64,000 nucleotides of DNA from Nocardioides sp. Root190 (GTDB lineage: Bacteria; Actinomycetota; Actinomycetes; Propionibacteriales; Nocardioidaceae): contig NZ_LMIA01000001.1 in NCBI RefSeq assembly GCF_001428565.1, positions 395,612-459,611 of the forward strand. The letters are read 5' to 3'. Positions 43,912-53,083 of the stretch are shown here, piece after piece (position 1 is the first letter of the stretch; each line of letters begins with the position of its first letter). The notes under the pieces are model-generated. The model did not search any database. It saw nothing but the letters and a program-made list of their open reading frames with translations, and was not told the origin of the DNA. A program made the translations under genes and the position numbers.

Positions 43912-44943
43912 TCACAGGCGATCGGCGATCCGGGCGCGACCACGCCCGTCGACCACCGCCCAGGCCGCCCTGCGGAGCCTCCTGCGGGCCCCTGAGCCGT
44001 CAGCGCCGCCCTCGACGTCCCCACCGTCCAGCAGGTCCCGCACGATGCTCCGGGCCGACGCGGGGTCCCCACGGAGGTCGGCGAGCGTGCCCAGCGGCGC
44101 GACCAGCCCTGCCTCGACCGCGCGGCGGTAGGTGTCGGCCTGGTTGTCCGCCACCTGGACCAGCGCGGCCGCTGCACCCAGGCACAGCAGCTCGGCGCTC
44201 GAGGTCCCCGCCGCGCTGACCACCAGGTCGCTGCGGGCGATCAGGGCCGGCAGCTCGCTGGTCGGATCGATCACCTCGATGCCCTGCCCCGGCCCGGGCA
44301 CCAGCGCGTCCAGCTGCGCACGCAGCTCGGGTCGGGCCGCAACGACGGTGAGGTGCACCGGGAGCCCGGCGCCGAGGACCGCGCCGGCGAGCGGTGGCGC
44401 TGCCCCGTGGGCGTCGGTGCCGCCGGAGAACACCACCACCCGCGGCGGATCGCCCTCGACGTGGGTCTCGACGTCGCTCGGGCGGTGTGCGAGGACCTCG
44501 TCGCGGATGAGCGCGTGCGCGATGCCGAGGAGGCGGTCCGGGCCGACCGCTGCGTCCGCCTCGGCCCCCAGCGTCGGGTCGATCACCACGTCGGCAGGCC
44601 GTCCCCTGGCACCGGCGTCGACGAAGGCCGCCACCCGGTACGACGTGCCGAGGGCGTCGTACGCCGCGACGGGGAGGACGTAGGAGTCCACGACCACGGT
44701 CCCCGGCCGGTGCCGGGCCACGGCGGCCAGCTGCCCGGCGAGGTCCGGGGGCGGCTGCTCCCAGGTCATCTCGCGCCGCTCGAGCTGCGCCCGGGCGAAC
44801 GGCACCGAGGCCGCGTCGGTCAGGAAGTGCACCGCGCGACCGCGCGAGACCAGCTCCTCGGCGAGGGCGATGCACCTCATCAGGTGCCCGGCGCCGAGCC
44901 CCGGGCCGAGGTCGCACCAGATCAGGACAGACACGCGCGCCAC
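43912..44943 (-). CDS. pseG: PseG-like UDP-sugar hydrolase
   Basis: 343 residues from GTG 44943 behind SD GAGGTGG. The N-terminal LGAGHLMRCIALAEEL carries the catalytic histidine (H20, equivalent to H17 of Campylobacter PseG). VVDSYVL, FSGGTDA and the nucleotide-binding SAAGTSSAELLCLGAAAA complete the GT-B-like fold. PseG removes UDP from 2,4-diacetamido-2,4,6-trideoxy-L-altropyranose in pseudaminic acid synthesis. Divergent from pseB, with 106 bases between. The C-terminal ~30 residues are Arg-rich and variable. A related legionaminic-pathway hydrolase is the main alternative. Confidence 0.8.
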   Translation of the reverse strand: MARVSVLIWCDLGPGLGAGHLMRCIALAEELVSRGRAVHFLTDAASVPFARAQLERREMTWEQPPPDLAGQLAAVARHRPGTVVVDSYVLPVAAYDALGTSYRVAAFVDAGARGRPADVVIDPTLGAEADAAVGPDRLLGIAHALIRDEVLAHRPSDVETHVEGDPPRVVVFSGGTDAHGAAPPLAGAVLGAGLPVHLTVVAARPELRAQLDALVPGPGQGIEVIDPTSELPALIARSDLVVSAAGTSSAELLCLGAAAALVQVADNQADTYRRAVEAGLVAPLGTLADLRGDPASARSIVRDLLDGGDVEGGADGSGARRRLRRAAWAVVDGRGRARIADRL

Positions 44944-45049: not shown

Positions 45050-46039
45050 GTGTCCATCCTCCAGGGATCCAGCATCCTGATCACCGGCGGAACCGGTTCG
45101 TTCGGCAAGGCCTTCATCCGCCACGCCCTCGACAACTTCGACCCGCGCCGCCTCATCATCTTCAGCCGGGACGAGCTGAAGCAGTTCGAGTGCCGGGCAC
45201 TGTTCAACGACGACCCGCGCCTGCGCTGGTTCATCGGCGACATCCGCGACCAGCCGCGACTGACCCGCGCGATGCACGATGTCGACTACGTCGTGCACGC
45301 CGCCGCCCTCAAGCAGGTCGACACCGGCGAGTACAACCCGTTCGAGTTCGTGAAGACCAACGTGCTGGGTTCCCAGAACGTCGTCGAGGCCGCGATCGAC
45401 TCCGGCGTGAAGCGCGTCGTCGCGCTGTCCACCGACAAGGCCTCCTCGCCGATCAACCTGTACGGCGCCACGAAGCTCACCGCCGACAAGATCTTCACCC
45501 TCGGCAACAACTACGCGGCGTCGTACCCGACCCGCTTCTCGGTGGTCCGCTACGGCAACGTCACCGGCTCGCGCGGCTCGATCATCCCGAAGTGGCGCGC
45601 GATGCACGAGCGCGGCGAGTCGTTGCCGATCACGGACCTGCGCTGCACGCGCTTCCTGATCACCCTGCCCGAGGCCGTCCAGATGGTCATCGACACCTTC
45701 GAGATGATGCAGGGCGGCGAGTTGGTCGTCCCCCACATCGCCTCGCACAAGGTCATCGACCTCGCCCAGGCGATCGCGCCCGGCGCCGAGATGCACGACA
45801 TCGGCCTGCGCCCCGGCGAGAAGCTCCACGAGGAGATGATCAGCCCCGAGGAGGGCCGCCGCGCCGTCATCGTGATGGGCGGCAAGTACTACGTCATCGA
45901 GCCCGAGATCGGCTCCTGGGGCTACCAGCCCATCAAGGACGCCATCCCGGTCCCGGAGGGCTTCCACTGCGCCTCCGACAAGAACGACATCTGGATCGGC
46001 GTCGACGAGCTGCGCGCGCTCCTCGAGTCGGGCGTCTGA
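45050..46039 (+). CDS. pseB: UDP-N-acetylglucosamine 4,6-dehydratase (inverting), PseB-like
   Basis: 329 residues from GTG 45050 with SD GGAAGG. Short-chain dehydrogenase of the FlaA1/PseB group: TGGTGSFGKAF (12-22), SRDELKQFE, and the catalytic set D129, K130, Y138, K142 in STDKASSPINLYGATK. It forms UDP-2-acetamido-2,6-dideoxy-L-arabino-hexos-4-ulose from UDP-GlcNAc, the first step to pseudaminic acid. The next gene begins on its stop codon (TGATG). Confidence 0.93.
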   Translation: MSILQGSSILITGGTGSFGKAFIRHALDNFDPRRLIIFSRDELKQFECRALFNDDPRLRWFIGDIRDQPRLTRAMHDVDYVVHAAALKQVDTGEYNPFEFVKTNVLGSQNVVEAAIDSGVKRVVALSTDKASSPINLYGATKLTADKIFTLGNNYAASYPTRFSVVRYGNVTGSRGSIIPKWRAMHERGESLPITDLRCTRFLITLPEAVQMVIDTFEMMQGGELVVPHIASHKVIDLAQAIAPGAEMHDIGLRPGEKLHEEMISPEEGRRAVIVMGGKYYVIEPEIGSWGYQPIKDAIPVPEGFHCASDKNDIWIGVDELRALLESGV

Positions 46040-47163
46040 TGCTCCCCTACGGTCGGCAGTCGATCTCCGAGGAGGACATCGAGGCCGTCGTCGCGATCCT
46101 GCGCGGTGACTGGCTCACCACGGGGCCGACCGTGACCGCGTTCGAGGAGGCCGTCGGCAAGGTCGCCGGCGGCCACCGGGCGGTGTCCTGCACCTCGGGC
46201 ACCGCTGCGCTCCACATGGGGTACGCCGCCGCCGGAGTCGGGGCGGGCGACGAGGTCATCACCACGCCGATGACCTTCGTCGCGACCGCGTCGGGCGCCT
46301 CGATCCTCGGCGCGAAGATCGTCTTCGCCGACGTCGAGGAGGACACCGCGCTGATCGACCCCGCAGCGGTCGAGGCCCTCGTCACCGAGCGCACCAAGGT
46401 CGTCGCGGCCGTCGACTACGCCGGTCACCCTGCCGACTACGACGCGCTGCAGGCCGTCGCGGACCGGGTCGGCGCCCTCACCCTCGACGACGCCGCGCAC
46501 TCGATCGGCGGCAGCTACCGCGGCCGGCCCGTCGGCGACCTGGCCGACCTGACGTCGTTCTCGTTCTTCCCGACCAAGAACCTCACCACCGCCGAGGGCG
46601 GCGCCCTGGTGGCCCGCGACGACGCGATCGCCCAGCGGGCCCACGAGTTCCACTTCATCGGCCTGGTGCGCGACCAGTCGCGGTTCCGGATGACCGACGA
46701 GGGTCCGTGGCACCAGGAGGTCCACGACCTCGGCCTGAACTACCGCCTCACCGACGTCGCCTGCGCGCTGGGCCTGTCCCAGCTCACCCGGCTCGACGCG
46801 TTCAAGACCCGCCGCACCGAGATCACCGCGCGCTACAACGCCGCACTGGCCGACGTACCCGGGCTGCGGATCCCGGTGCAGCGCGACGACGTCGACCCCG
46901 TGTGGCACCTCTACCCCGTGCGGGTCCTCGAGGGACGCCGTCGCGAGGTCTTCGAGAAGATGCGCGAGCGGGGCATCGGGGTGCAGGTCAACTACATCCC
47001 CGTCTACTGGCACCCGGTCTACGCCGACCTGGGCTACCAGCGCGGCATGTGCCCGAACGCCGAGGCGTTCTACGCCGAGGAGCTCTCCCTCCCGCTCTAC
47101 CCCGACCTGACCGATGCCGAGGTCGACCGCGTCATCGAGACGCTGGTCGACGTCCTCGGCTGA
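46039..47163 (+). CDS. pseC: PseC-like aminotransferase (DegT/DnrJ/EryC1 family)
   Basis: 374 residues; ATG 46039 overlaps the pseB stop by one base. PLP-dependent 4-aminotransferase acting on the PseB product. CTSGTAALHMGYAAAG, TPMTFVATASGASILGA, LDDAAHSIGGSY, and the PLP lysine K180 in FSFFPTKNLTTAEGG; QVNYIPVYWHPVY near the C-terminus is PseC-like. PseH, PseI and PseF counterparts needed for CMP-pseudaminate are not in the window. Confidence 0.92.
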   Translation: MLPYGRQSISEEDIEAVVAILRGDWLTTGPTVTAFEEAVGKVAGGHRAVSCTSGTAALHMGYAAAGVGAGDEVITTPMTFVATASGASILGAKIVFADVEEDTALIDPAAVEALVTERTKVVAAVDYAGHPADYDALQAVADRVGALTLDDAAHSIGGSYRGRPVGDLADLTSFSFFPTKNLTTAEGGALVARDDAIAQRAHEFHFIGLVRDQSRFRMTDEGPWHQEVHDLGLNYRLTDVACALGLSQLTRLDAFKTRRTEITARYNAALADVPGLRIPVQRDDVDPVWHLYPVRVLEGRRREVFEKMRERGIGVQVNYIPVYWHPVYADLGYQRGMCPNAEAFYAEELSLPLYPDLTDAEVDRVIETLVDVLG

Positions 47164-47182: not shown

Positions 47183-47695
47183 ATGAGCCTCGTCCGCCGC
47201 CTGTACGCCACCGTGATGTCGATGCTCCCCGAGCTCGGCAAGTTCGGGGTCGTCGGCCTGGTCGGGCTGCTCGTCGACGTGGGCGGCTTCAACCTGCTGC
47301 GGTTCGCCGGCGGCGAGGGTCCGCTGCACGACTACCCGCTGACGGCCAAGATCGTCTCCTCGGCGGTCGCGACCATCGTGTCGTGGCTCGGCCACCGCTA
47401 CTGGACCTTCGAGCACGGTCGGCGCGACGCGGTCCACCACGAGTTCCTGCTCTTCCTCGTGATGTGCACGATCGGGACCGGCATCGCTGTCGGCTGTCTC
47501 GCGGTGTCGCACTACGTCCTCGGCTTCGAGTCCGCGGTCGCCGACAACATCGCCGCCAACGTGATCGGCCTCGGCCTGGGCACGGCGTTCCGGTTCTGGG
47601 CCTACCGCACGGTGGTCTTCAGCCACACCGGGGACGGCGACGGAGCGTCCGGCGACTCCGGCAGCTCCGAGGGCTCGGTCAGCGCCCGCGCCTGA
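47183..47695 (+). CDS. GtrA family membrane protein (second copy)
   Basis: 170 residues from ATG 47183. Four membrane helices with the GtrA opening LGKFGVVGLVGLLVDVGGFN, then SWLGHRYWTF and FRFWAYRTVVFS, and a Gly/Ser/Asp-rich C-terminal tail. Probably a lipid-linked sugar flippase or membrane anchor for the neighbouring GT2. It follows pseC by 19 bases. Its last 17 bases overlap the end of the convergent GT2 gene. Confidence 0.88.
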   Translation: MSLVRRLYATVMSMLPELGKFGVVGLVGLLVDVGGFNLLRFAGGEGPLHDYPLTAKIVSSAVATIVSWLGHRYWTFEHGRRDAVHHEFLLFLVMCTIGTGIAVGCLAVSHYVLGFESAVADNIAANVIGLGLGTAFRFWAYRTVVFSHTGDGDGASGDSGSSEGSVSARA

Positions 47696-48404
47696 TCCCC
47701 ACGGTCCGCAGCCTCATCTTCAGGACCAGCAGGATCATCTCGAGCCCGAGCTTGATCGTCTTGCCGAGGTCGCCGGTCACCGAGGAGACGCCCACCCGCG
47801 GGTGGTAGTTGACCGGCACCTGCACCAGCTTGGTGCGCATGATGACGGCGATGAGCAGCATCTCCAGGCCGTAGGCCGAGCCGTCGAGACGTGAGCGGCT
47901 CAGCACCATCGAGGCCTGCTCGCGGGTCATCACGCGGAAGGTGCAACCGACATCGCTGAGGTAGCTCGTGTTGTAGAGCACCTCGATGAGCTTGGCGACC
48001 GCCCAGTTGCCCCACTGCAGGAACGGGCCCATGTTGGCGCCGTGCCAGATGAAGTTCGACACCGTGCGCGAGCCGACGACGTAGTCGCACTCGGGCATGA
48101 AGGCCAGCAGCTTGCGCAGGTCCTCGGGGTTGAAGGTCCCGTCGGGCTCGCAGATGGCGACCAGGTCGGTGTCTGCCTCGCGCAGACCGCGCTTGATCGC
48201 GGCGCCGTACCCCTGCGTGGTCTCGACGACCTCGCGGGCGCCGGTGCGGGCGACCTCCTGCGAGGTGCCCTCGGCCGCGTTGTTGTTGACGACGATGACC
48301 TCGTCGACGATCTCGAGAGCCTCGAACCGCGCCGCGATGTCAGCGATGCTGTCCTTCTCGTTGTACGTCGGAAGCACGACCGACAACGTCTTTCCCTGCC
48401 ACAT
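47679..48404 (-). CDS. Family 2 glycosyltransferase (DPM1/GtrB-like, no membrane helices)
   Basis: 241 residues. LSVVLPTYNEKDSIADIAA at the N-terminus, DEVIVVNNNAAEGT, and CEPDGTFNPEDL in the DxD position identify a GT2 enzyme of the polyprenyl-phosphate-mannose/glucose synthase type. NNN replaces the usual VDDGS, so the donor site differs from the window's other GtrB-like enzyme. A hydrophobic/basic C-terminus may dock to the membrane, and the GtrA protein next door could be the anchor. Overlaps that gene tail-to-tail by 17 bases. Confidence 0.88.
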   Translation of the reverse strand: MWQGKTLSVVLPTYNEKDSIADIAARFEALEIVDEVIVVNNNAAEGTSQEVARTGAREVVETTQGYGAAIKRGLREADTDLVAICEPDGTFNPEDLRKLLAFMPECDYVVGSRTVSNFIWHGANMGPFLQWGNWAVAKLIEVLYNTSYLSDVGCTFRVMTREQASMVLSRSRLDGSAYGLEMLLIAVIMRTKLVQVPVNYHPRVGVSSVTGDLGKTIKLGLEMILLVLKMRLRTVGIRRGR

Positions 48405-48434
48405 TCGAGGCGTCCTCCGTCACTCGTCGCCGGG

Positions 48435-49103
48435 TCAGCGGTTCGCCACGACGAGCATCTGGCCCGCCAGCGGCTTGATGGGCGAGCGAAGGTACCACGG
48501 CACCAGGAAGGTCAGGCCGGAGCCGCGGGACTTCATCGTGAGCGGGAGGAAGCGGGCCTTCATCGTCTCGATGGACCACCCCTCCGAGACGAGATAGTCG
48601 CCCAGGGACTGGTCGGTGAAGATCGCGACGTGGGTGAAGTCGTCGAAGTAGCGCCCCGGATTGAGCCGGAAGTTGGGCTGCATCAGGATCAGGCGTCCGC
48701 CCGGTCGCAGCACCCGTCGGGACTCGGCGAGCAGCTTCGTCGCGTCGGCCCGCTCGAGGTGCTCGAGCAGGTTGGAGGCGAAGACGACGTCGAAGCTCCC
48801 GTCGGCGAAGTCGCTCAGGTCGGTGCAGTCACCGACCACGGCCTCGACGTGCTCGGCCGCGCCGCGCCGGACCGTGGCGTCCAGGTCCATCGCCACGACG
48901 CGTCGCGCGGACACCTGGTTGGAGAAGTCGCACCAGCCGGCGCCGAGCTCGAGGACGTCGGCGTCCGGGGCGATCCAGCGGGAGAGGTAGGCGCAGATGT
49001 GCTCCCAGATCCGACCCCGGCTGGCATTGGCGGCCAGTCGGGTCTCGAAGTATCCGGGGCGGTAGGTAGCGTCGTCCCCACTGGGATCCGGGCTGTCAGG
49101 CAC
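48435..49103 (-). CDS. SAM-dependent methyltransferase of the glycan island
   Basis: 222 residues from GTG 49103; an ATG at 49124 adds seven residues but leaves only 11 bases to the divergent gene. Motif I VLELGAGWCDFSNQV, motif II acid in VVAMDLDATV, FDVVFASNLLEHLER and VLRPGGRLILMQPNF. C-terminal region rich in Phe/Leu/Pro. Probably methylates a sugar or a lipid-linked intermediate given the neighbours (inference). 30 bases before the GT2 gene on the same strand. Confidence 0.87.
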   Translation of the reverse strand: MPDSPDPSGDDATYRPGYFETRLAANASRGRIWEHICAYLSRWIAPDADVLELGAGWCDFSNQVSARRVVAMDLDATVRRGAAEHVEAVVGDCTDLSDFADGSFDVVFASNLLEHLERADATKLLAESRRVLRPGGRLILMQPNFRLNPGRYFDDFTHVAIFTDQSLGDYLVSEGWSIETMKARFLPLTMKSRGSGLTFLVPWYLRSPIKPLAGQMLVVANR

Positions 49104-49135
49104 AGTCCCGAAACGTATCAGCATCGAGGAGAACG

Positions 49136-51388
49136 ATGAGCACCACGGAGTCGGCCACCGCCGAGTCGGCCACCCCGTCCCTGTCGCTGCCGGGCTGGAC
49201 GCGCCCGGTCGCGCAGGGCGCGACGCTCGTCCTCGTCGTGGCGCTGCTGGCGTGGACCGGCGTCGCCGGCATGTCCTGGACCGGGCTCCTCCTCGCCACC
49301 CTCACCGTGGTGGCGACCACCCTCCTGCCCGGCGTCGTCGTGTGGCGCGTCGTACGCCCCCGGCACGGCTGGTGGGCCGAGGACATCGGGCTCGGCTTCG
49401 GCGTGGGATCGGTCATGGCACTGCTCGCCCAGGTCCCCGCCGGCCTGCTCGGGCTGCACTGGCTCTCCGCGGTCCTGGTCCTTGCCGTGACGGGCGTCCT
49501 CCTCGCCGTCCCCGTCACCCGTGACCGGGTCCGCACGGCCGAGACCGCGGCACTGCCGGCCTGGTGGTGGCCGCTCGTCGGCACCACGATGCTCGCGCTG
49601 GTTCCGCAGCAACGCGACTACTTCCGCGCCAACCCGCTGGACTGGGTCGACAACACCCGCCTGCACATCGACTCCCCGCTCCACCTCGCCCTCGTCAGCC
49701 AGCTGTCCGAGCGGGGACCGACGACCTTCCCGTGGGTGCAGAGCGAGGCGCTCGGCTACCACTGGTTCAGCCACGCGTGGATGGCCCAGGTCGGTGCCAC
49801 CTCGGGCGCCGAGCTCGACTCCGTGCTGCTGCGGTTCATGCCCGCGGTGATGCTCGTCGTCGTACCCGTCGCCGTCGCCGCGGCGGCGGTGCGCCTGACG
49901 GACCGGGCGTGGGCCGGTCCCGTGGCCGCGCTGCTGGTCGTCGGCTGCGGCCAGATGAACGCCTTCGGCGCCGACATCTTCCGGCGACCGATCATCCCCG
50001 AGTCGCCGACCCTGGGCCTGTCGGTGCCGATGCTGATGGCGCTGCTCGTCGTGATCGTCACGCGCTGGCGACGCACGGCGATGCCCGGCGCCTGGGTCGT
50101 GCTGGTCCTGCTGGCGGTCGGAGCCGCCGGCACCAAGGGGTCCGCGACACCCTTGGTGATCGCGGGCCTCGGGCTCGCGGGACTGATGATGCTGCTGCTC
50201 AACCGCCAGTACGCCGCGCGCATCTTCGCCGACGGCTGCCTGTGCGTGGCCGCCGTGGTGGTGGTCATCGCGACGGTGTTCCGCGGCTCGGGCGCAGGAC
50301 TGCACTTCGGCTTCGCCGACGCCGCGGCCCAGACCTGGGGCGGCCGGCTGCTCGGCACCGACACGGTGTGGAGCCGGGAGATCGGTGCCCTGGTCACCGT
50401 CATGGGCGTGCTCACCGCTGCGGTGATCGGGCTGTGCCTGCTGGCGTTCCGCCGGTGGCGCGAGGACCCCGCCCCCTGGCTCCTGGCCGGCGCCGGGATC
50501 GCCGGCGCGGCTGCCGTCTTCTGCTTCGCGCACCCCGGCAACAGCCAGGGCTACTTCGCGATCCAGGCGGCGCCGGTGATGGTGCTGCTGGCCGTGCTGA
50601 CGCTCGCCGTCCTCGTCGACGAGTGGCCCCTGCGCCAGGTCGCGACGATCCTGCTGGTCGCCGTGCCGATCGGTCTGCTCGCCGCCCGCGGACCCGTCAT
50701 GCTGCTCGGTCCGATGAAGCGTGCCGACCACTCCGACGCGTTCGCGCTGTTCGCCACGAGCACCGTGGTGCTGCTCGCGGGCGTCGGCCTCGCCGTCCTG
50801 CTCTCGACCCAGCAGCGCCTCGTCGCCGGCGTCGCCGCGCTCGGCGCCGCCGTGATCGTCGGCGGCCTCGCGATCAACTGGCAGCACCTGCAGCCCGCCC
50901 CGAAGCCGGACACCATCAAGGTCGAGCGGGACACCGACGGCGCCATCTCGCGAGCCACGATCCGGGCGGCGCGCTGGCTGCGCGACCACTCCGACCGCAA
51001 CGACGTCGTCATGTCGAACCGGCACTGCTACGCCCCGGCCGACGACCCGGTCGACGGCTGCGACAGCCGCCGGATGGTCGTCGCGGGCTGGTCCGAGCGC
51101 CAGGTGCTGCTGGAGGGCTGGACGGCGACGCCGCGATCGGCCGAGGAGGGCCCGGAGGGCCGCGACTCGATCACGATCGCCTACTGGAACCTCGACCTGC
51201 TCGCGCTCAACGACGGCTTCATCGCCGCCCCGAGTGCCGATGCGGCCCGCGAGCTGCGCGAGGAGCACGACGTGCGGTGGGTGTTCGTGGACCACCTGCG
51301 GCCCCACGCCGACGAGGCGGCCTTCGCGCCGTACGCGACGAAGCGGGCGACCTTCCGCGGCGTGGACATCTACGAGCTGCGCGACTGA
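49136..51388 (+). CDS. Large polytopic membrane protein, probable GT-C type glycosyltransferase
   Basis: 750 residues with SD GAGGAG. About 13-14 membrane helices between residues ~28 and 590, then a ~150-residue extracytoplasmic domain with two cysteines (NRHCYAP, DGCDSRR). The first large loop (VPQQRDYFRANPLDWVDN, then HIDSPLHLALV and YHWFSHAWMA) is rich in Asp/His/Trp, as in GT-C catalytic loops, but no exact family signature is seen. Likely transfers a lipid-linked sugar outside the membrane (inference). Divergent from the methyltransferase gene. Confidence 0.75.
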   Translation: MSTTESATAESATPSLSLPGWTRPVAQGATLVLVVALLAWTGVAGMSWTGLLLATLTVVATTLLPGVVVWRVVRPRHGWWAEDIGLGFGVGSVMALLAQVPAGLLGLHWLSAVLVLAVTGVLLAVPVTRDRVRTAETAALPAWWWPLVGTTMLALVPQQRDYFRANPLDWVDNTRLHIDSPLHLALVSQLSERGPTTFPWVQSEALGYHWFSHAWMAQVGATSGAELDSVLLRFMPAVMLVVVPVAVAAAAVRLTDRAWAGPVAALLVVGCGQMNAFGADIFRRPIIPESPTLGLSVPMLMALLVVIVTRWRRTAMPGAWVVLVLLAVGAAGTKGSATPLVIAGLGLAGLMMLLLNRQYAARIFADGCLCVAAVVVVIATVFRGSGAGLHFGFADAAAQTWGGRLLGTDTVWSREIGALVTVMGVLTAAVIGLCLLAFRRWREDPAPWLLAGAGIAGAAAVFCFAHPGNSQGYFAIQAAPVMVLLAVLTLAVLVDEWPLRQVATILLVAVPIGLLAARGPVMLLGPMKRADHSDAFALFATSTVVLLAGVGLAVLLSTQQRLVAGVAALGAAVIVGGLAINWQHLQPAPKPDTIKVERDTDGAISRATIRAARWLRDHSDRNDVVMSNRHCYAPADDPVDGCDSRRMVVAGWSERQVLLEGWTATPRSAEEGPEGRDSITIAYWNLDLLALNDGFIAAPSADAARELREEHDVRWVFVDHLRPHADEAAFAPYATKRATFRGVDIYELRD

Positions 51389-51409: not shown

Positions 51410-51772
51410 TCAGACGTCGCGGCCGGTGACCGGGTCGACCCCGGCCTTCGCCTCCAGGACGCGCAGGCGCTCCTCGAAGACGACGGCAGCGCTGATCCGG
51501 GCCCGGACCCGTGCGTGCTCGGCCCGGACCTCCTCCAGGACCGTGCGGGCGGCGGCGACGTCCTCGGGGGAACCGGTCGGAGCGGGTTCCTCGACGCGTC
51601 GCCGCAGCGCCTCGAGCCGCTCCTCCAGGGCCGCGACCTGCGGCCCGATCCGGCCGATCTCGCGCACGGCGTCGCCGAGCCGCTTCTCGAGGTCCTCCAC
51701 CCGGGGGCCGAGCTCGTCCGGCAGTCGGTGGGCGCGGCGCAGGGCGCGCACCAGGTCGCGGGATCGACTCAT
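51410..51772 (-). CDS. Small coiled-coil protein
   Basis: 120 residues from ATG 51772, overlapping the stop of the sialyltransferase-like gene (ATGA). Almost entirely helical with heptads (LGPRVEDLEKRLGDAVREIG, then VAALEERLEALRRRVEE; VLEEVRAEHARVRARISAAV). No signal or membrane segment. No family recognised. The overlap makes it a probable co-expressed partner or scaffold of the glycosyltransferase. Confidence 0.7.
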   Translation of the reverse strand: MSRSRDLVRALRRAHRLPDELGPRVEDLEKRLGDAVREIGRIGPQVAALEERLEALRRRVEEPAPTGSPEDVAAARTVLEEVRAEHARVRARISAAVVFEERLRVLEAKAGVDPVTGRDV

Positions 51773-52461
51773 CGTTGCTCCTCGTGTGCGCGGTCGCTCG
51801 GCCAGAACCGTACCGACCCGTCCTCGATCCAGCCGCGGAGCAGGGCTCCTTCGGCGGCGACCCGGTGCTCGGGCCCGATCTTGCCGGAGGCACCGGACTG
51901 GTAGTCCCAGCGCTGCGGGTCCTCGGCGACGTACGACAGGCCGGTGACCAGCAGGGCGGCGTCCGGGAACAGCCTGCGTGCCAGCCAGGCGGCCGTCGTG
52001 CCGCTCGTCGGGGCAAGGGCCTCGGTGCGCCACGGGAGCCCGAGATCCTCGAGCAACGGCTGCGCGACGAGGTCGTTGGGCGCCACCACGAAGCCGAGAT
52101 CGGCCGGCCAGGACGTCGGCCAGACCTCCGGTCGGTGGTACATCCGCATCGGCTCGAGCATCACGTACAACCGCGACGGGTAGTCGTCGTACAGGCGTCG
52201 GGTGGCGCGCACCAGGCGTGACCAGAGGACGACGTCGGTACGGCGGCCGGCGGCACGGGGCTCGCCCGGCTCGTCAGTGGTGAAGCTGTTGACCCGGACC
52301 ACCAGGTCGCAGGCGTCGATCGCGTCCGCGCGGGCATCGGAGGCCACCAGGGGTGCGTTGCCGACGACGGCGATGGTGCGGACCGGCGTACGACGGGCGT
52401 AGGCCGCCACCAGGTCCCTCAGGACGCCGAGACGGGAGGCGTCCGGGACAGGTGGGGTCAC
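51769..52461 (-). CDS. GT29-like (animal-type) sialyltransferase homologue
   Basis: 230 residues, soluble, no membrane anchor. Three regions match the sialylmotifs of GT29 enzymes in order and spacing: motif L as TIAVVGNAPLV (29-39) with IDACDLVVRVNSF (48-60); motif S as APTSGTTAAWLARRLF (150-165) with LLVTGLSYV (170-178); motif VS as H199-x4-E204. In GT29 the L-motif Asn and the VS His/Glu bind CMP-sialic acid and catalyse transfer. Next to pseB/pseC/pseG it may transfer a nonulosonic acid (inference). It could also be an inactive or different-donor relative. Overlaps the coiled-coil gene by 4 bases; 10 bases separate it from the next upstream gene. Confidence 0.72.
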   Translation of the reverse strand: MTPPVPDASRLGVLRDLVAAYARRTPVRTIAVVGNAPLVASDARADAIDACDLVVRVNSFTTDEPGEPRAAGRRTDVVLWSRLVRATRRLYDDYPSRLYVMLEPMRMYHRPEVWPTSWPADLGFVVAPNDLVAQPLLEDLGLPWRTEALAPTSGTTAAWLARRLFPDAALLVTGLSYVAEDPQRWDYQSGASGKIGPEHRVAAEGALLRGWIEDGSVRFWPSDRAHEEQR

Positions 52462-52471
52462 GCGGGAGATG

Positions 52472-53083
52472 CTACGCAGACTGCGCCTTGCGCCACGCCC
52501 GGCCGGCGTCGCGCTCGGCCTGGAGCTCGGAACGCACGGTGTCGACCTCGGCCTCGAGCTCGGCGACCCGGACGATGGCCTGCCCGGCCCGCTCCTCGGC
52601 GTCGGCGAGGCGGGCGGAGAGCCGCTCGGCAGCGCGCTGCGCCTCGGAGGCGGCGTCGTGCGCCTCGGCCAGCTCCTGACGCGCGTCGGCGAGCTCGGAG
52701 GCAGCGTCGCCGAGACGGCGCTCGAGACGGGAGATGGTGGCGTCGCGGCGGGCGATCTTGCCGGTCATGTCGGCCGCGAACTCGACGTTCTCGGTGGTGC
52801 GGACCTCGGTGAGGTCGGCATAGGACCGCGCCTGGGCGGCACGGTCGCGCGCAGCGTCCTCGCGGGAGGTCATCAGCTCGGAGTGGGTGATCCGGGTGGC
52901 CGTCGCGCCGAGCACGACAGCAGCCACCGCGGCGAGCGTCACGAGCAGCCCGGAACCGGTGGCGGCGGTGCCGGCCACGGCGAGCGCCGCGACCACGATC
53001 AGGAGCACGGCGACCACGAGGCGGGTCGACCGCTGGCGACGGCGGTTTCCGGCGGAGGTGCTGGACCTGACAGGGGAAGTCAT
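52472..53083 (-). CDS. Membrane protein with long C-terminal coiled coil
   Basis: 203 residues. A basic N-terminus, two close membrane helices (LVVAVLLIVVAALAVAG and LLVTLAAVAAVVLGATA, about 22-62), then ~135 residues of near-continuous coiled coil rich in Ala/Glu/Arg (SRLERRLGDAASELADA and on). The coil should be cytosolic. It lies directly upstream of the sialyltransferase-like gene on the same strand and may anchor or organise the glycosylation enzymes; polar-growth scaffold is an alternative. No family recognised. Confidence 0.72.
   Translation of the reverse strand: MTSPVRSSTSAGNRRRQRSTRLVVAVLLIVVAALAVAGTAATGSGLLVTLAAVAAVVLGATATRITHSELMTSREDAARDRAAQARSYADLTEVRTTENVEFAADMTGKIARRDATISRLERRLGDAASELADARQELAEAHDAASEAQRAAERLSARLADAEERAGQAIVRVAELEAEVDTVRSELQAERDAGRAWRKAQSA

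Follow-up and report, generated by a model that had tools for sequence, protein, structure and literature searches.

We found that a 64,000-nucleotide stretch of the genome of the actinobacterium Nocardioides sp. Root190 (contig NZ_LMIA01000001.1, positions 395,612 to 459,611; called the window below and numbered from its first letter) encodes a protein of glycosyltransferase family GT29, P0001, that probably transfers pseudaminic acid (Pse) from its cytidine monophosphate (CMP)-activated form to a cell-surface glycan, with inversion and with His199 as the predicted base. A preliminary description of this DNA had pointed out the open reading frame at 51769..52461 as an animal-type sialyltransferase gene. 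The frame is real, with a GTG start and 230 amino acids (aa), but it runs from 52461 to 51769 on the minus strand; on the plus strand the interval has a stop codon inside the frame and encodes no such protein. That the donor is likely CMP-Pse is indicated by genomic context and pathway linkage.

In a survey of 341 Nocardioidaceae genomes, the GT29 gene was present in 26, spread over 10 of 26 genera. The pseudaminic acid synthase PseI was matched at E<=1e-100 in 23 of these 26 carriers, compared with 5 of 315 non-carriers. Within the genus, PseI scored above its curated cut-off in 6/6 GT29-positive and 2/53 GT29-negative genomes; NeuB (PF03102) was less specific, with strong matches in 6/6 carriers and 11/53 same-genus non-carriers. 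Furthermore, the GT29 and PseI genes lay on one contig in 21 of the 23 genomes, 1.2-18.0 kb apart, the two exceptions being this genome and G696, where they are on different contigs. The genes pseB and/or pseC were found within the fetched flank of 8 of 13 GT29 loci, and of the five that remained, three (G011, G051 and G015, identical to loci L022, L021 and L024) had PseI 16-17 kb away. The 13-locus and 341-genome sets share members, and L018 is the same locus as L104. A scan of the phylum with the GT29 profile PF00777 matched 2/396 genomes, a figure that is uninformative on rarity because the P0001 family itself is missed at E<=1e-3.

The clearest gene cassette, L105 of genome G585, spans 6.9 kb and comprises GT29, a small partner gene termed cc1, a cytidylyltransferase, PseC, PseB, a PseG-acetyltransferase fusion and PseI; it adjoins genes resembling ribosomal and elongation-factor genes. 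The cassette of G762 (L104) contains GT29, cc1, a MaoC-like protein, PseH, PseI, PseG, PseB, PseC and a cytidylyltransferase. No glycosyltransferase besides GT29 was recognised in either of the two. Larger cassettes (L058/L059, L060 and L063) have acyl-carrier, AMP-ligase and reductase genes added. PseB and PseI score above curated cut-offs in L058/L059, L104 and L105, as does PseH in L104, and PseC lies 5-15 bits below its cut-off in the same three. Genes at the comparison loci were called with home-made callers (base composition or codon usage), with uncertain starts, and we named the fol, ftsH, pan, ribosomal and elongation-factor genes by eye. Together, the compact cassettes of L104 and L105 and the co-occurrence with PseI indicated a CMP-pseudaminic acid transferase. 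The earlier suggestion of a CMP-nonulosonate donor thus received strong support from context (co-occurrence, linkage and cassettes), and we infer that this nonulosonate is specifically Pse.

The sialylmotifs of P0001 were found where the preliminary description had put them. Motif L (31-60) includes AVVGN at 31-35 and IDACDLVVRVNSF at 48-60, motif S (151-178) includes PTSGTTAAWLA at 151-161 and TGLSYV at 173-178, and motif VS is present as H199 and E204 (H-x4-E). A partial motif III lies at 187. These motifs are not due to chance, because P0001 has 247 homologues at E<=1e-3. Among the best 120 of the 247, 60 (query included) were aligned (alignment A1), and N35, R56, N58, T152, G154, G174, S176, H199 and E204 were each conserved in 60/60. 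A profile-based count over 149 partly redundant records (the 120 protein records, query apart, plus 29 loci of the 341-genome survey) showed R56, N58, G154, H199 and E204 to be invariant in 149/149 relatives, with T152 in 148/149 (one Ser) and N35 in 148/149 with one gap.

Membership of GT29 was supported by family profile matches, by the fold and by a bridging alignment, so that P0001 appears, on sequence and predicted structure, to be a distant relative of the animal sialyltransferases, as had been proposed. In the P0001 family, PF00777 is matched at E<=1 by 57/60 members, with 7.6e-9 as the best value, and a 39% identical member reaches 29.9 bits, above the cut-off of 23; the same domain is precomputed on 14 of the best 120 of the 247 homologues. 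In a Pfam scan of P0001 at E<=1 we obtained PF00777 alone, and no PF01973 (MptE/Maf-like). The predicted model is of high confidence (predicted local distance difference test (pLDDT) 92.1, predicted template modelling score (pTM) 0.90), and a Foldseek search of the PDB with it gave 22 matches at E<=1e-3, all of them GT29 sialyltransferases. CstI and CstII of family GT42 had structural scores below every GT29 entry listed. Profile searches of the PDB gave only weak matches with alignment A1 (best 4mps, E 0.14) and no GT29 match with P0001 alone; P0122 of Microbacterium suaedae (NCBI name) was used instead, as a bridge to ST6Gal1. The P0001 family aligned to P0122 with E 1.6e-8, placing H199 and E204 on a His and a Glu of P0122. 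The match of these two residues to ST6Gal1 falls in a segment that does not reach significance (-2.3 bits).

Directly behind the GT29 gene lies cc1 (51410..51772, minus strand), which encodes a helical/coiled-coil partner of 120 aa; the two genes overlap by 4 bases (ATGA), the cc1 ATG with the GT29 stop. Among 96 related genomes the GT29 gene occurs in 6, all of which belong to the 59 same-genus genomes, and cc1 is found in 6/6 GT29-positive and 0/90 GT29-negative genomes. It also directly follows GT29 in 13/13 loci from named genomes. The model of cc1 has three helices and moderate confidence (pLDDT 78.6, pTM 0.41). Of the coiled-coil neighbours, which had been proposed as partners, only cc1 was retained. 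The other, the membrane/coiled-coil protein cc2 (52472..53083, minus strand), was ruled out as part of the system; it is a core-genome gene and is regarded as background because it is present in 58/59 same-genus genomes. Coiled-coil/SMC-like profile matches of both proteins were generic and indicated no function. At L025 and L106, two GT29 copies flank one Pse cassette, each with its own cc1 in L025, which suggests two acceptors or two linkages.

The chromosomal site offers a clue to the acceptor. In this genome and in G055 the cassette site is bordered on one side by a folate operon (folK, DUF3180, cc2) and on the other by DUF2520. The GT29-negative genome G041 has cc2 directly next to DUF2520, the gap in G014 and G033 holds a TagF-like gene and others, and in G034 a TagF-like gene comes after cc2. 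A TagF-like protein (PF04464, 3.7e-83) is also encoded near the Pse genes of G011. Because TagF-like genes occupy the same site in relatives and accompany the Pse genes of G011, we prefer a cell-wall or capsule-like glycopolymer as the acceptor. Teichulosonic acids containing Pse occur in actinobacteria.

We propose that CMP-Pse would enter the sialylmotif pocket of P0001, that H199 would deprotonate an acceptor hydroxyl, and that Pse would then be passed to the acceptor with inversion. The corresponding His acts as catalytic base in ST6Gal1. For His199 and Glu204 of P0001 the roles are predicted from the alignment to ST6Gal1 through P0122, and inversion is predicted from what is known of GT29 enzymes, in part from PMC5811610. 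The reaction presumably takes place in the cytosol, as no membrane segment was noticed by eye. We suppose that cc1 binds the enzyme and holds or selects the acceptor, contacting both, much as GlfM aids flagellin binding by Maf-2; according to the part of PMC13317340 seen, Maf-2 requires this co-encoded partner for flagellin binding.

That dependence would also fit another acceptor, in which Pse is transferred to flagellin or another surface protein, as by Maf, with cc1 as a protein-binding factor. cc1 is likewise a small co-encoded protein, and our search of this genome for PF01973 (MptE/Maf-type) at E<=0.01 gave no match. On the other hand, flagellar genes were not noticed beside the cassettes (by eye, with no aimed search), and TagF-like polymerase or GT2 genes are present at the site and in some cassettes. 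We consider a protein acceptor rather unlikely.

Several findings weigh against a CMP-Pse-using GT29 enzyme. As to the family, P0001 alone stays below the PF00777 cut-off (15.7 bits, E 0.01; cut-off 23). Lack of a significant GT29 profile match, which the preliminary description had named as refuting its reading, thus applies to the single protein but not to its family. Motif III, expected as H or Y followed by an aromatic and an acidic residue, is kept only partly: position 187 is H in 45/60 and Y in 15/60 aligned members, 188 is Q in 59/60 and 190 is G in 60/60. As to the association, 3 of the 23 PseI matches in carriers lie 1-2 bits below the curated cut-off, 3/26 carriers (G545, G546 and G764, draft assemblies in 300-370 contigs) have no PseI match, and PseI is present without GT29 in 5 genomes. 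Two GT29-negative genomes retain Pse genes, G006 as a cassette and G053 as a locus of the type described below for contig C8. The Fisher p-values of 7.5e-28 and 6.2e-7 overstate the evidence because genomes share descent, and are indicative only. In this genome PseI and PseF lie outside the window, no PseH was identified (no genome-wide search was aimed at it), and the window itself also encodes a GT2 glycosyltransferase. Finally, the PseG-like proteins of GT29 loci are clearly below the PseG cut-off, and the cassette cytidylyltransferases (L058, L016 and L105) match CTP_transf_3 and not the PseF model, so that Pse is a presumed sugar for these enzymes, too.

The last two findings would suit a GT29 transferase with a different CMP-nonulosonate as donor, for which branch enzymes of the cassettes would make a derivative of Pse or another stereoisomer, and some cassettes do have reductases, an aldo/keto reductase-cytidylyltransferase fusion, an acyl carrier and an AMP-ligase that could modify the sugar. 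The PseB and PseI scores in L058/L059, L104 and L105 and the existence of minimal cassettes lacking extra enzymes make this improbable. We regard it as still more improbable that the protein is no Pse transferase, either with its GT29 fold repurposed or with other enzymes using Pse while the gene merely travels with the cassette, given the invariant catalytic-type residues in all 149 relatives and the lack of any other recognised glycosyltransferase in L104 and L105. Transfer of Pse from CMP-Pse to a surface glycan is the reading that we prefer.

The eukaryotic GT29 enzymes compared (ST3Gal1, ST6GalNAc2, ST6Gal1 and ST8SiaIII) are about 15-20% identical to P0001, which differs from them in having only 230 aa, in the partial loss of motif III and in its linkage to pseudaminic acid genes rather than sialic acid genes. 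The label 'animal-type' proved misleading, since bacterial GT29 sequences have been in print since 2018 (PMC5811610) and NCBI names actinobacterial proteins, P0072, P0122 and others, as GT29. In the part of that paper seen (Petit et al. 2018), 23 bacterial sequences, 19 of them alphaproteobacterial, are reported to lack both a transmembrane domain and conserved disulfide cysteines, and the authors state that their trees did not permit function prediction. Like those proteins, as far as they are described there, P0001 is a soluble-looking catalytic domain with sialylmotifs; unlike them, its lineage is actinobacterial and tied to the Pse pathway and cc1. Horizontal transfer from an animal was considered and is unsupported, in view of the distribution over 26/341 Nocardioidaceae genomes and 10/26 genera and of the nearest GT29 met outside the family, which is bacterial.

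Known users of CMP-Pse, the Maf flagellin glycosyltransferases and KpsS1 (GT118), belong to families other than GT29 in the parts seen of PMC13317340 and PMC12887879; KpsS1 is described as retaining in the title of a reference cited there, whereas GT29 enzymes invert. Judged by titles and abstracts, none of the papers listed in searches of open-licence literature, which leaves subscription journals mostly outside, dealt with a GT29 enzyme using Pse or with actinobacterial GT29 function. The GT29 family is known in bacteria, and a Pse-transferring member would be a new variant. With co-occurrence and compact cassettes, one bacterial GT29 lineage is now tied to one donor pathway, which reduces the question of bacterial GT29 function and sialyltransferase origin to an assay of one enzyme. 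If the assignment is true, it would also provide a new tool, an inverting one, with which to attach pseudaminic acid; in the literature, as far as it was seen, the Pse transferases are Maf and the retaining KpsS1. We also put forward, as a tentative idea that we would not yet favour, that this is the first inverting GT29 pseudaminyltransferase, working as a two-gene unit with an acceptor-supplying coiled-coil protein, and that the animal sialyltransferase scaffold also serves bacterial Pse chemistry, perhaps as its original use.

Other GT29 architectures were met as well. P0122, an actinobacterial GT29-GT-B fusion, shares the GT29 domain with P0001 and has genes for a cytidylyltransferase and NeuB as neighbours, and it differs in its length of 775 aa, a second glycosyltransferase domain (PF00534) and a motif III kept as HYYD. 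A GT29-GT-B fusion also lies beside a cytidylyltransferase-HAD fusion and NeuB at L066:6161-12549 (G411), a second actinobacterial GT29 lineage whose donor is likely sialic-acid-like. P0164 (1250 aa) has precomputed PF01973 (Maf/MptE-like) and PF00777 in one protein, and in P0165 (630 aa) PF00777 is combined with PF01943, a domain of flippase type; in both, GT29 is naturally fused to other machinery for surface glycans.

Within the window, the gap between cc2 and DUF2520 (from 42822) forms a variable surface-glycan island. It contains, on the plus strand, pseB for an inverting UDP-GlcNAc 4,6-dehydratase (45050..46039; TIGR03589 438.7 bits, cut-off 407.75) and pseC for an aminotransferase (46039..47163; TIGR03588 430.2 bits, cut-off 423.5), both with starts set by eye, and, on the minus strand, a pseG-like UDP-sugar hydrolase gene (43912..44943; TIGR03590 100 bits, below the cut-off of 153.55). 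The distance of 5-7 kb from the GT29 gene given earlier for these three is about right. The island further encodes three neighbours of uncertain role: a GtrA-like membrane protein (47183..47695, plus; PF04138 79.5 bits), the GT2 glycosyltransferase (47679..48404, minus; PF00535 61.2 bits) and a 750-aa protein that is multi-membrane by eye (49136..51388, plus), has no Pfam or NCBIfam match and has distant relatives, about 30% identical, in five GT29 loci. As a group (47183-51388), they resemble a lipid-phosphate-sugar decoration system.

In a profile search of this genome, PseI, PseF and a second PseG were found on contig C8, all above cut-off; Pse supply would thus be split between the window and C8. 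The C8 locus (L012/L013, 283000-314000) also encodes two TPR proteins (859 and 862 aa) and an unknown protein of 361 aa, and similar loci occur in G055 and G053. Unknown proteins of this locus may be a second CMP-Pse user. At L105:12444-13925 and L103:9476-10927 a PseG-like protein carries a GNAT acetyltransferase domain at its C terminus, which makes it a probable fusion of PseG and PseH. In addition, a cytidylyltransferase fused to an aldo/keto reductase, with a short-chain dehydrogenase gene adjoining, was seen at L014:5374-6966 (contig C10 of this genome) and L058:12902-14515, and the C10 fusion is 44% identical to the copy in the G055 cassette.
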